Source: Haloterrigena alkaliphila (GTDB taxonomy: Archaea; Halobacteriota; Halobacteria; Halobacteriales; Natrialbaceae). From it: a stretch of 64,000 bases of DNA. The notes beneath the pieces were generated by a model. The model worked only from the letters and a program-made list of their open reading frames with translations. It was not told the origin of the DNA and searched no databases. Positions 9,766-63,079 of this stretch are shown here, piece by piece; the stretch's first letter is position 1, and the number at the start of each line of letters is the position of its first letter. Where the stretch lies: the NCBI RefSeq assembly GCF_017352155.2, contig NZ_CP071462.1:3410001-3474000 (forward strand), in the 5' to 3' direction. The position numbers were made by a program, and so were the translations under genes.

Positions 9766-9853
9766 GGCCCACGACTCGAGCGCTGCGATTCCGTTGAGCG
9801 CAGCGATCAGAACAGGCTAAAAACATGTCACTCCGCGCTGGGAGCAGGCGTAG

Positions 9854-9986
9854 GTGGCGCGCGCTGTCGGAGGACCGAGCGACAGCGAGGGGCTCCGACG
9901 GAACTGCGCGAGGGATGAGCGAGCGTAGCGAGCGAATCGGCTGGGGAGGGCGTGGCGATTCCTTGTTGCCACGGATAGCAGAACGC
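9854..9986 (+). repeat. Dispersed repeat, copy A
   Basis: It begins with GTGGCGCGCGC, then GTCGG..GACCGAGCGACAGCGAGG, and ends with AGCGAATCGG, CTGGGGAGGG and a hairpin with GTGGC (9952-9956) and GCCAC (9968-9972) arms and an 11-base loop. The closing string is ATAGCAG. The same ends and hairpin occur at 45954 and 62786. No open frame is kept between copies. Confidence 0.75.
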
Positions 9987-17657: not shown

Positions 17658-17682
17658 CTGATTCTCCCGGTGACGGCGATCG

Positions 17683-18648
17683 TCAGGGCTCGAGCACCAG
17701 CTTTCCGAGGAAGCTGTCGTTCATCACGTCCCGCTGGGCCTGCGAGGCCTCCTCGAGGCCGTAGCGCCGCGCGAGTTCGATCGACAGCCTGTCGCGCTCC
17801 AGCAGGTGGGCGACGCCCCGCAGCGGGACGCGCAGATCCGGCGTGTTGAACATGCTCATGAACTGGTAGCTGACGTCCTTCGACCGAGCGGCGCCGTCGT
17901 TCGAGAAGCCCGGATCGGGGCTGTTCTCGCCGATGCCGACGACGCGGGCGCCGGTCGCGGCGACGTCGGCGTCGAACTGGAGGTAGTCGTCCAGTCGGTG
18001 ATCGAGGACGGCGTCGACCCCGCCGTCGCTTGCCTCGAGGACGGCGTCCGCGAGGTCGTCGCGCGCGTAGTCGAGGACGGTCTCGGCGCCGAGGTCCTCG
18101 AGGTCGTCGTGGTACTCCTCCGAGGCGGTCGTGATCGTGTGGGCGCTGACAGCGTCGGCGATCTGGACCGCGGCGTGACCGACGCCGCCGGAGCCGCCGT
18201 GGACGAGACAGTACTCGGCGGGATCGAGGGCGGCGTGGTCGACCAGCGCGCGCCACGCGGTGACGGCGGCGACGCCCGCCGCGCCGGCCTCGGTCAGGTC
18301 CGCGCCGTCGGGGAGGTGGACCACGCGGTCGGTCGGGACGGTCGCGTACTCGGCGTAGGCTCCCTGCGAGGCGCCGTTGCCGATGCCGGTGCCGAAGACG
18401 CGGTCGCCCTCCTGGAAGTCCTCGACGCCCGCGCCGGTTTCCGCGACGACGCCCGCCAGATCGACGCCGGGCGTGAACGGCACGTCGACCGGTTCGTACG
18501 AGCCGTCCCGGAAGTAGGTGTCGACCGGGTTGACCCCCGCGGCGGCCACCTCGACGAGCAGTTCGTCCTCGGCGGGGTCGGGTCGGTCGACCTCGTCAAC
18601 CTGCAGTACGTCCGCGTCGCCGTGTTCGTGAAGGCGTACAGCGCGCAT
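17683..18648 (-). CDS. Zinc-free MDR oxidoreductase, NADPH:quinone reductase-like
   Basis: 321 residues with the quinone-reductase pattern: N-terminal MRAVRLHEHGDADVLQVDEV, GVNPVDTYFRDG, and the nucleotide-binding LVHGGSGGVGHAAVQIADAV. The cysteine set for catalytic and structural zinc is missing, which separates it from zinc alcohol dehydrogenases. Such enzymes reduce quinones, enones or small carbonyls with NADPH. The last part, LSIELARRYGLEEASQAQRD, is typical for the family. It is convergent with the DUF7344 gene ending at 17657. Confidence 0.9.
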   Translation of the reverse strand: MRAVRLHEHGDADVLQVDEVDRPDPAEDELLVEVAAAGVNPVDTYFRDGSYEPVDVPFTPGVDLAGVVAETGAGVEDFQEGDRVFGTGIGNGASQGAYAEYATVPTDRVVHLPDGADLTEAGAAGVAAVTAWRALVDHAALDPAEYCLVHGGSGGVGHAAVQIADAVSAHTITTASEEYHDDLEDLGAETVLDYARDDLADAVLEASDGGVDAVLDHRLDDYLQFDADVAATGARVVGIGENSPDPGFSNDGAARSKDVSYQFMSMFNTPDLRVPLRGVAHLLERDRLSIELARRYGLEEASQAQRDVMNDSFLGKLVLEP

Positions 18649-44254: not shown

Positions 44255-45847
44255 ATGTCGCACAATTTCGATCCCGAACCCGGACCCGAGTCCCCGCGCC
44301 CGCAGTCGCTGTGGCTGGCCACGACGCCGACGACCGACTACGAACCGCTCGAGGACGGCCTCGAGGTAGACGTCGCCGTCGTCGGTGGCGGCATCACCGG
44401 GCTGACCGCCGCGATCAACCTGAAAGAGGCTGGGAAGACGGTGGCGGTGCTCGAGTCGGACCGCATCGTCGAGAGCACGACCGGCCACACGACGGCCAAA
44501 CTGACCTCCCAGCACGGGCTGATCTACGACACGCTCGTATCCCAGTTCGGCCCCGAGAAGGCGAAACAGTACGCCGACGCCAACGAGGCGGCGATCGACG
44601 CGGTCGAGGAACGCATCGAGGAGCACGACATCGACTGCGACTTTCGGCGGACGCCGGCGTACACGTACGCGGCCTCGTCCGCCGACGTCAAACGGGTCAG
44701 CGAGGAGGTGGAGACGGCCCAGCGGCTCGGCCTCCCGGCCGAATACGTCGCGGAGACGCCCCTGCCCTTCGAGACCGAAGGGGCCGTCCGCTTCGACGAG
44801 CAGGCGGAGTTCCACCCCCGGAAGTACCTGCTCGCCGTTGCCGAGGCAATTCACGGCGACGGCTGCCACGTCTTCGAGGAGACGCAGGCGGTCGACCTCG
44901 AGCCCGGTGACCCCTGCCGCGTCGAGACGGAACGCGGCGCGGTCGTCGCGGACGACGTCGTGGTCGCCACGCACTTCCCCTTCTTCGATCGGGCCGGCTA
45001 CTTCTCGCGGATGCACCCCCACCGGGCCTACCTGCTGGCCGTCCGCGTCGAAGAGGAGCCACCGGCGGGGATGTACTACAGCACGGCGTCGCCGCCGGCC
45101 ACGATTCGAACGTACGCCGCCGAATCCGACCGGAGCGACCGCGAAGACGACGATACCGCAGCCGACGAACTCGTCCTCGTCGGCGGCCAGAGCCACAAAC
45201 CGAGCGTCAGCGGGCCGCCGACCTCCGAGCGATACCGGCGCTGCGAGCGATTCGCCCGCGACCACTTCAGCGTCGAATCGATCGAGTACCGCTGGTCGAC
45301 GATGGACTATTCGCCGGTCGACAAGGTGCCCTTCGTCGGGCAAATTGATCCCCTGTCCGAGCACGTCTACGTCGGTACGGGGTTCAACGGCTGGGGCATG
45401 TCCGGCGGCACCGCCGCCGGGATGATCCTCGCCGACCTGATCGTCGAGGGCTCGAGTCCGTGGGCGGACGTGTTCGATCCCCAGCGGCTCCCGCCGAAAT
45501 CGTCGGCCAAGAGCTTCCTCGAGGAGAACGCGGTAGTTGGCGGGAGCTTCGTCGGCGATCGGATCAAGTCGCTCCTCTCGTCGCTCGGCGCCGACGGGGG
45601 CGCCGACCTTCCCTCGTCCGGCGAGGGGAAGATCGTCCGCCGGACGGGCCGTCCGATGGGGGTCTATCGCGACGAGGAGGGCTCGGTCCACGCCGTCTCC
45701 GCGGTCTGCCCCCACATGGGCTGTCTCGTCCGGTGGAACGACGCCGAGCGAACCTGGGACTGCCCCTGTCACGGCTCGCGCTTCACCCACGACGGCGACG
45801 TGCTCTCCGGGCCCGCGCTCGAGGGATTGCCGTATCGGGAACTCTGA
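44255..45847 (+). CDS. DAO-type flavoprotein with C-terminal Rieske domain
   Basis: 530 residues. Residues about 35-425 are an FAD-dependent DAO fold (VDVAVVGGGITGLTAAINLK, TGHTTAKLTSQHGLIYDTLV, VGTGFNGWGMSGGTAAGMIL). The C-terminal about 85 residues are a Rieske 2Fe-2S domain with CPHMGC and CPCHGSRF, four ligands. Such fusions occur in bacteria and archaea and are thought to shuttle electrons from an organic substrate. The substrate is unknown. The ATG is at MSHNFDPEPG; a leader Met three codons earlier exists. A proline/charged tail precedes the catalytic part. Confidence 0.9.
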   Translation: MSHNFDPEPGPESPRPQSLWLATTPTTDYEPLEDGLEVDVAVVGGGITGLTAAINLKEAGKTVAVLESDRIVESTTGHTTAKLTSQHGLIYDTLVSQFGPEKAKQYADANEAAIDAVEERIEEHDIDCDFRRTPAYTYAASSADVKRVSEEVETAQRLGLPAEYVAETPLPFETEGAVRFDEQAEFHPRKYLLAVAEAIHGDGCHVFEETQAVDLEPGDPCRVETERGAVVADDVVVATHFPFFDRAGYFSRMHPHRAYLLAVRVEEEPPAGMYYSTASPPATIRTYAAESDRSDREDDDTAADELVLVGGQSHKPSVSGPPTSERYRRCERFARDHFSVESIEYRWSTMDYSPVDKVPFVGQIDPLSEHVYVGTGFNGWGMSGGTAAGMILADLIVEGSSPWADVFDPQRLPPKSSAKSFLEENAVVGGSFVGDRIKSLLSSLGADGGADLPSSGEGKIVRRTGRPMGVYRDEEGSVHAVSAVCPHMGCLVRWNDAERTWDCPCHGSRFTHDGDVLSGPALEGLPYREL

Positions 45848-45953
45848 TCAGTTCGCGTGGAAGCGCTGTTCGGAGGTGCGTTCGGGACGGGTTCCAAGAG
45901 TGGTCCGCAAGGCTGGTGACGTTCGGGCGAACTGAAACATGAATCTAGCTGCG

Positions 45954-46351
45954 GTGGCGCGCGCCCGGCCACGGTGAGCGACGAGCGAACCGTGGTCCGG
46001 AGTCGCACGAGGTCTTCGTGAACGGAGTGAACGAAGTCGTTCGAGACGGCTTTGCCGTCTCGTGACTGAGCGAAGCTTCGCGATGTCCGCGAAACCGAAG
46101 GTTTCGCTTGATGCGAAAATCTTCGATTTTCAGCAGCTTGGAAGACGCAAAGCGTCTTCCAGTGGATGAACGAGTGACCGGCGCGGGACCTTCGGTCCCG
46201 CGTACCGTGCGAACGGGCAGTGCGCGGCGCGTAGCGCCGCGACTGTCGGGACGGCGAAGCCGTCCCGCAGCGCCCGTGAGCAGACGAAGGGAACGAGCGA
46301 ATCGATTGGGGAGGGCGTGGCTATTCCCGGTTGCCACGATAGCAGGACGGT
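45954..46351 (+). repeat. Dispersed repeat, copy B (expanded)
   Basis: It starts with GTGGCGCGCGC and ends with AGCGAATCG..TTGGGGAGGG, then a hairpin (GTGGC 46317-46321, GCCAC 46333-46337, loop 11) and ATAGCAGGAC. Between lie a dyad CCACGGT/ACCGTGG (45969-45995) and the palindrome array. It is about 260 bases longer than copies A and C, all of the extra length being in the middle. Confidence 0.75.
46042..46267. repeat. Array of seven perfect palindromes with 3-base centres
   Basis: Each unit is X, 3 bases, then the complement of X. Arms and centres: CGAGACGGC/TTT (46042), GCGAAACC/GAA (46089), GAAAATC/TTC (46115), GGAAGACGC/AAA (46140), CGCGGGACC/TTC (46182), CGCGGCGC/GTA (46223), CGGGACGGC/GAA (46247). 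Arm lengths are 7-9. A further exact palindrome GCGAAGCTTCGC lies at 46070. The arm sequences differ from each other, so the shared property is the shape and not the sequence. Confidence 0.85.
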
Positions 46352-46416
46352 TCCCGTGATTAACCGGGAACGATCGCGACTGTACGAAATTCGGATCGCT
46401 CGTTCGAATCGGCAAG

Positions 46417-47175
46417 TTAGAGCGAAACGTCGCCGAGGTCGATCCGGGTCGGTTCCGGAACGGCATCCGGACCATCATCGTCGCTCGAGACCGCGTACGT
46501 GCCGCGTTCGACCGCCGTCTCCTTTGTCTCGCCGGTGAGGACGATGACGCCGTCGGCCAGCAGGGGGGCGACGACGCCCGCCGCGACGGTCCGCGGATCC
46601 GAGAACGGGGTCCGGATCACCACGCGGTCGCCCTCCTCGAGGCCGTACTCCGCGACGACGTTCACGGCGGCCTCGCACACGGCACCGTGACTGACGGTCC
46701 GCTCGCCGTCCGTCAGCAGCGTCGTCTCGGGATCGATGTCCAGCGGCGGGAACGCGGGGTTTTCCGTCCAGACGCCGGCGTCGAAGTGGTGGATGTCCGG
46801 CTCCTCGGGTTTCGCCCCGTAGCCGACCCGCTGGGCGCCCCGCGGGAGGTCGTAGGTGCCGGACTCGAGGTCCCGGACCGGCGCCACGAGCGCCCGGAAC
46901 TCGTCGGCATCTGTGAGGTCGGTCGGCGGATCGAACTGCGTCGCTCCCTCGAGCAGCGCGGTTCCGAAGCAGGCCAGCAGGGAGAGCGGGCTCTCCCCGA
47001 CGATGCCGACGGTGACGCCCTTCCGGACGCCCGCGTGGCGCAGGAAGTTCCCGGCCTTCCACGCGGTCGTACACAGCCAGTGGTGGTCGAACTCCCGGCC
47101 CGTCGCGTCGACCAGCGACGTGTGCTCGGCCCGGAGTTCGCGCGTGAGTAACTCGTCGACTGTCGCAGCGGTCAT
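46417..47175 (-). CDS. Short AMP-binding/acyl-CoA synthetase-like protein
   Basis: 252 residues. It looks like the N-terminal part of an ANL (acyl-CoA synthetase) fold: GREFDHHWLCTTAWKAGNFL, RKGVTVGIVGESPLSLLACF, then TVSHGAVCEAAVNVVAEYGL and GDRVVIRTPFSDPRTVAAGV. Catalytic motifs of full synthetases (the P-loop-like TSGTTG) are not seen, so it is probably not an active acyl-CoA synthetase. Haloarchaea have such short paralogs; the role is unknown. Start MTAATVDELLTREL. Confidence 0.65.
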   Translation of the reverse strand: MTAATVDELLTRELRAEHTSLVDATGREFDHHWLCTTAWKAGNFLRHAGVRKGVTVGIVGESPLSLLACFGTALLEGATQFDPPTDLTDADEFRALVAPVRDLESGTYDLPRGAQRVGYGAKPEEPDIHHFDAGVWTENPAFPPLDIDPETTLLTDGERTVSHGAVCEAAVNVVAEYGLEEGDRVVIRTPFSDPRTVAAGVVAPLLADGVIVLTGETKETAVERGTYAVSSDDDGPDAVPEPTRIDLGDVSL

Positions 47176-62628: not shown

Positions 62629-63079
62629 AGATAATACGTGAATCATGTTCGGAGAAAAACCTTCTGCATACTCCGATACGCCTTCAGTAGTCCGGAAGGC
62701 AGTTCCTTTCCTCAAATCGAGGTGGGAACAACTCGGTGCGTATTGGCTGAGAACCGATTACGCTCCGTTGAGGAACCGGCGTGCTGTGGCGCGCGCCGTC
62801 GGCCGACCGAGTGATAGCGAGGGCGGCTGACAAATTCGTGCGAGGGATGAGCGAGTGAGCCTGCGAACGAGCGAATCGGTTGGGGAGGAAGTGGCTACTC
62901 CCTGTTGCCACGATAGCAGGACAGTTTTCTTCGCCATCCACTTCTCTCGAAGCGTCGAGCCATCCGCAGACGCACTGAGCGAATCCCATAGTTATCTCAC
63001 ACACGAGGCGTCATGGCACGAGCGCGTCCAACCGTTTTGAGGGTTGCCCACGTCCGTAACCTCGAGAGGCGACAGTCGC
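62629..63079. other. Intergenic region with a dispersed repeat
   Basis: 451 bases without a gene. It holds copy C of the dispersed repeat (62786-62925). The sequence before (62640-62780) is lower in GC, and after (62926-63079) there is no recognisable signal apart from the promoter of the hydrolase. Confidence 0.6.
62786..62925 (+). repeat. Dispersed repeat, copy C
   Basis: It starts with GTGGCGCGCGC, then CGTCGGCCGACCGAGTGATA, and ends with AGCGAATCGG, TTGGGGAGG and a hairpin GTGGC (62891-62895), GCCAC (62907-62911) with an 11-base loop, then ATAGCAGGAC. It is about 140 bases, close in length to copy A. Confidence 0.75.

Follow-up and report, generated by a model that had tools for sequence, protein, structure and literature searches.

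Results

The palindrome cluster lies within a longer, dispersed element

The window, a stretch of 64,000 nucleotides from the genome of Haloterrigena alkaliphila, contains seven perfect inverted repeats within 226 nt (positions 46042-46267), with arms of 7-10 nt. What this cluster is, and whether it stands alone, is the question raised by the locus. An earlier note on this DNA had described seven such repeats, each with a central spacer of three bases, and an exact 12-nt palindrome among them. Both were confirmed, the 12-nt palindrome being GCGAAGCTTCGC at 46070-46081. When 64-kb windows were shuffled (n = 60), the densest 226-nt stretch held one palindrome in 41 windows and two in 19. Shuffling of the element copy itself (n = 2000) gave a mean of 0.05 triloop palindromes and a maximum of 2. 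Comparable clusters were thus not obtained from shuffled sequence, a check that the note had proposed; seven triloop palindromes per 226 nt is far above chance, and a chance origin was excluded. The row of palindromic units recalls a CRISPR array. However, the arms differ, the constant repeat and the spacers (~30-40 nt) are absent, and each unit is inserted into a more extensive fold; CRISPR and tandem repeats were therefore excluded, as the note had held.

When the genome was searched with 45850-46430 as the query, both ends of the region were found to be a dispersed repeat, hereafter element E. The element spans approximately 45949 to 46347, so that the bounds 46042-46267 were too narrow, and the conserved, informative parts (45949-46012 and 46291-46347) lie outside them. 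The array is not free-standing but the enlarged portion of an element that is conserved, covaries and is present at least 145 times in the genome. The anatomy of the element and of its window copy is secure. We give about an even chance to the wider reading, in which the dispersed haloarchaeal repeat, one copy of which has expanded to give the array, is a REP/BOX-like intergenic RNA domain. The parts of the window copy, and two further copies in the window, are as follows.

45949-46347, +, whole element E copy, enlarged form (model R1 matches at both ends, 45949-46075 and 46220-46347; ends common to other copies)
45950-45962, +, 5' strands of closing stem P0/P1 and of P2, TGCGGTGGCGCGC (pairs from the hand-drawn fold)
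45965-46000, +, P3 hairpin, a stem with strong covariation that contains tandem G.A steps (fold and covariation)
46013-46164, +, inserted hairpins at the GAGG/GATGA junction, among them palindromes 1-4 and the 12-mer (lacking in uninserted copies; one-hairpin version in a congener)
46013-46036, +, junction hairpin containing tandem G.A steps, TCTTCGTGAACGGAGTGAACGAAG (sequence)
46042-46062, +, palindrome 1, 9-TTT-9 (arm end AGACGGC in 3 copies)
46070-46081, +, exact 12-nt palindrome (sequence)
46089-46107, +, palindrome 2, 8-GAA-8 (sequence)
46115-46131, +, palindrome 3, 7-TTC-7 (related module in copy L022)
46139-46161, +, palindrome 4, 10-AAA-10, module ending AAGACGC (arm end seen in 14 of the 203 copies compared; the orthologous copy has the loop GAA)
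46165-46179, +, 5' strand of P4 (fold)
46182-46202, +, palindrome 5, 9-TTC-9, P4-tip module CGGGACC (arm end seen in 9 copies)
46209-46281, +, branched P4-tip module, GCGAACGGGC ... GCGCCCGTGAGC around palindromes 6 and 7 (simple form in L013, L017, L019 and L033)
46223-46241, +, palindrome 6, 8-GTA-8, module GCGGCGC (arm end in 14 copies)
46247-46267, +, palindrome 7, 9-GAA-9, module GGACGGC (arm end in 4 copies)
46291-46303, +, 3' strand of P4 (fold)
46306-46330, +, P5 hairpin, TTGGGGAGGGCGTGGCTATTCCCGG (fold)
46331-46344, +, 3' strand of the closing stem, TTGCCACGATAGCA (fold)
9849-9982, +, second element E copy, uninserted (R1 match, 121.9 bits)
62781-62921, +, third element E copy, uninserted (R1 match, 154.6 bits)

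Extra hairpins were present at two places in the enlarged copy, the junction (46013-46164) and the tip of P4 (46180-46290). Folded as RNA, this copy gave -217 kcal/mol (z -6), a value that includes all the inserted hairpins and is by itself no proof of the core. It is flanked by a FAD-oxidoreductase/Rieske gene on the + strand (Pfam) and, on the other side, by a gene on the - strand, for which a Pfam search gave no match.

The core fold covaries

The usual copy of element E is ~142 nt long, and the core stretches GCGAGGGATGAG and GAATCGGYTGGGGAGG were invariant among the fetched copies. In the hand-drawn fold the core has four helices: the closing stem P0/P1, P2 with the variable hairpin P3, P4, and P5. 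In P4, two-pair steps alternate with tandem G.A. Among 15 copies from the own genome, 96.1% of cells were paired and 15 pairs showed compensatory changes, more than in any of 500 shuffles or in any slid control. Furthermore, 102 copies from other genomes showed compensatory changes in 36 of 42 pairs (567 cells, compared with 153 after shuffling).

In the oriented strand, G.U/U.G greatly exceeded A.C/C.A among paired cells, both in other genomes (442 vs 56) and in the own genome (388 vs 57), although these counts come from alignments fitted to a model that somewhat favours G.U, which weighs against an RNA reading. Such an excess indicates that this strand folds, and RNA fits it better than single-stranded DNA. 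Given the strong covariation and a G.U:A.C ratio of about 8:1, the folded molecule is most likely the sense-strand RNA, as judged from the sequences.

No Rfam 15 covariance model matched 45800-46450 at E<=5, nor did any match the element copies of five other loci. A possible likeness between the 5' end and mammalian 7SL/Alu was set aside, since Rfam gave no SRP match.

Recurrent hairpin modules are inserted at the helix tips

The earlier note had held that the arms share only their geometry. However, palindromes 1 and 7 (46042-46062 and 46247-46267) have a similarity of 77%, and most of the arms are found again in further copies of the element. Among 203 copies from two species, arm ends such as GCGGCGC (14), AAGACGC (14), CGGGCGC (10), CGGGACC (9) and CGGAACC (6) were recurrent, and recurrent arms carried differing triloops between copies. 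The arms are therefore recurrent modules rather than unrelated sequences. The same modules were observed at the same places in other copies, and some also at the tip of P3. Core pairing was 93.6% in copies with insertions and 93.9% in those without; that is, the core stays paired. The suggestion that the units are triloop hairpins accumulating at one site agreed with our results. The sequences thus show extra triloop hairpins inserted at the junction before P4, at the P4 tip and at the P3 tip, the core remaining paired. The helix tips would tolerate such insertions, so that some copies grow.

Perfect arms with changing triloops also fit an array acting at the DNA level, as a cruciform or shape-recognition site of the sort that the earlier note had suggested, with the hairpins arising from replication slippage at perfect palindromes. 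Reverse-complementary loop pairs were somewhat more numerous than expected (40 vs 28.6, P 0.0145), as if loops flip in DNA; related copies are not independent in this count, and loop flipping between arms is weakly supported. Nevertheless, the multi-helix core is conserved rather than the palindromes, perfect palindromes with arms of at least 6 nt are lacking in 141 of the 203 copies, and the G.U asymmetry marks a preferred strand. We regard this explanation as very improbable.

Copies lie between genes and often form inverted pairs

Model R1, built on this fold, gave 146 matches, corresponding to about 145 elements at E<=0.01, all on the 3.82-Mb chromosome; 150 candidates were scored, and the count is a lower bound of at least 145 copies. 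None of the 145 copies overlapped a gene as called with a codon-usage script rather than taken from a published annotation. Single copies were located in convergent spacers (35), in co-directional spacers (24 sense and 21 antisense) and in divergent spacers (12), with convergent, co-directional and divergent spacers holding 31, 35 and 35% of intergenic bases, respectively. The element is thus depleted in divergent spacers. Close neighbours were arranged tail to tail in 24 of 26 cases (e.g., L182:1347-1642). Several of the tail-to-tail pairs are conserved in a congener. The sequence downstream of the copies is pyrimidine-rich. Upstream of 90 copies, a promoter-like conserved signal was not seen.

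The convergent pairs had suggested a strict 3'-UTR or terminator element. This role is weakened because a strict mRNA 3'-end element should show a sense bias, and none was found relative to the neighbouring genes (24 vs 21).

That the element is a REP/BOX-like intergenic RNA domain is supported by the covarying fold with its G.U excess, the placement between genes, the depletion in divergent spacers, the tail-to-tail pairs, the recurrence of modules around an intact core and the orthologous copies in a congener described below. The missing sense bias and the missing promoter signal speak against it. If it is nevertheless right, the sense strand would act as RNA, would be transcribed by read-through from adjacent genes (no conserved promoter having been seen), and its fold may bind a protein, for which L7Ae is a guess prompted by the tandem G.A steps, serving for example as a processing or 3'-boundary signal. 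The copies would spread or be exchanged as DNA by some further activity.

The strong, RNA-like covariation, together with a single orthologous copy in six genomes of one genus, might instead suggest that every copy is a small RNA gene with its own transcription and a role in trans. However, a conserved promoter signal was not seen upstream of 90 copies, more than 145 copies are many for such an RNA, and the P3 arms are too variable for a constant antisense target. This makes the proposal quite improbable.

Relation to known repeats

The nearest kinds of repeats are REP/BIME, BOX elements and haloarchaeal PATEs, and the tests run placed element E in none of them. The BOX elements of pneumococcus are intergenic modular repeats with stem-loop parts in varying number. 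Element E is likewise modular and intergenic, with a varying number of stem-loop parts; however, its sequence is unrelated, and its helix tips carry many different hairpins as modules instead of a single repeated one. Like REP, BIME and REPIN sequences (surveyed in PMC12306157), it is extragenic, structured, present in high copy number and often in inverted pairs, with none of 145 copies overlapping genes. In contrast, REP is a single palindrome of 20-40 nt with a GTAG or CGTC tag, and a four-helix unit of ~142 nt whose stems covary differs from this form in length and fold. PATEs, known from the haloarchaeon Haloquadratum, are dispersed and transposase-free, with palindromes near their termini that are related to IS605 ends (PMC3119063). 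Element E is also dispersed in haloarchaea, palindromic and without a transposase, but the palindromes of PATEs are near-terminal, whereas the defining part of element E is an internal multi-helix core; it is set apart on the description of PATEs. A search by topic and by stretches of sequence, which left most subscription papers and all supplements out of reach, found no paper describing the element. As far as found, this dispersed haloarchaeal element, which matches no Rfam family, is previously undescribed.

Orthologous copies diverge, often with pairing kept

In a congener (G003), an element of 187 nt was found at the orthologous place in the same orientation, with a single junction hairpin whose loop is GAA, compared with AAA in the window copy. 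The expectation that relatives share the feature was thus borne out for the element, while the congener has one module, not many. In a different genus (G013), apparently the same neighbouring gene followed a short spacer without the element. For over half of 46 loci of the congener, an element was also present at the corresponding place of the own genome, and one G003 element lies at a place that is empty in the window, near 17661-17709.

In 29 orthologous pairs, chosen for matching orientation, identity ranged from 0.61 to 0.98; unrelated copies had a mean of 0.73, and many of the orthologous pairs were no closer than unrelated copies. At 121 pair positions both sides had changed with pairing kept, and 87 were broken. 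For L268:1501-1641 and L026:1952-2093, the flanks and the core match and the whole P3 hairpin is different, yet paired in both. L323 has two modules and its counterpart L016 none. L271:1501-1701 and L040:2085-2218, from two species, carry the element in opposite orientations at matching places. The divergence of orthologues points to copy exchange, reinsertion at the same place, or very fast paired evolution. For the intergenic RNA domain this is a difficulty, as selection on each copy in place is not established.

These observations bear on another explanation, in which element E is a non-autonomous mobile element that moves as structured single-stranded DNA, like haloarchaeal PATEs or bacterial REPINs, its copies being selfish and its fold an IS200/IS605-type or TnpA_REP-like recognition site. 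The many dispersed copies, the presence and absence at matching places, the inversion at the L271/L040 place, the paired inverted copies and the occurrence of PATEs in a haloarchaeon all favour such an element. On the other hand, no copy was found on the two smaller contigs of the genome searched with R1 or in the viral collections searched, and few on plasmids (six plasmid records; the two examined carried no annotation of the element). MITEs have terminal inverted repeats with target duplication, and PATEs insert without one; the ends of element E pair as a short stem. Clean-boundary empty sites and target duplications were sought, and neither was definable among the species compared. Furthermore, certain pairs are mostly G.U, which is odd for a DNA fold. 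We consider the mobile DNA element a tentative possibility.

Element II and taxonomic distribution

With a broader model, R2, the element was found in 107 of 242 Halobacteria genomes (approximately 41 of 73 genera), and no match was obtained in 120 genomes of the phylum outside this class. Two weak matches to the element E model, L357 and L358, overlap or adjoin tRNA-like sequence; counts resting on one weak match are therefore soft. The idea that single-copy loci represent the ancestral gene was considered and not upheld. These two loci have palindromic repeats (GGACTCGCGGGG...) beside tRNA genes, which are probably another structured repeat or chance.

In the genus g43, the single copy orthologous in six genomes (L344, L346, L349, L350, L352 and L356) is fused to a second structured motif, element II (GGTGGGACTGAAAGGGGC...GGGGCTTTC), and is flanked by apparent cobalamin-biosynthesis genes, as read from translations, on the opposite strand. 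Element II is itself dispersed: it was found in 37 of 59 haloarchaeal genomes, with up to 84 copies in one, and a reversed control pattern gave no matches. Of its 31 predicted pairs, 21 showed compensatory changes, and triloop modules are present in it too. Examples are as follows.

L043:196-319 (own genome), L365-L384 and L301:1667-1844, element II

A more far-reaching and rather doubtful proposal is that element E is an archaeal RNA fold of a new class, mobile or exchangeable, that would multiply between genes, recombine with element II into composite RNAs and grow by hairpin modules at the tips. If so, RNA expansion segments could be observed as they form, copy by copy. If the main account of element E holds, an unannotated, covariation-supported, RNA-like structure would exist in many haloarchaeal genomes, with at least 145 copies here. 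Archaea would gain a large analogue of REP and BOX elements, and culturable haloarchaea would be a tractable system for what such repeats do. A fold growing step by step as hairpins are added, usually inferred from rRNA expansion segments only, would also be shown.

Two smaller features were observed beside element copies. The 5' flanks of L013, L015, L034 and the third window copy (62720-62780) have ~60 nt extra in common, ..GGCTGAnAAC..GGCTGAGGAACCGGCGTGC, as if a longer form of element E exists. In L015, ~30-130 nt downstream of the element copy and outside any copy of element E, two more triloop hairpins lie in an outer stem, GTCGTTCG...CGAACGAC.
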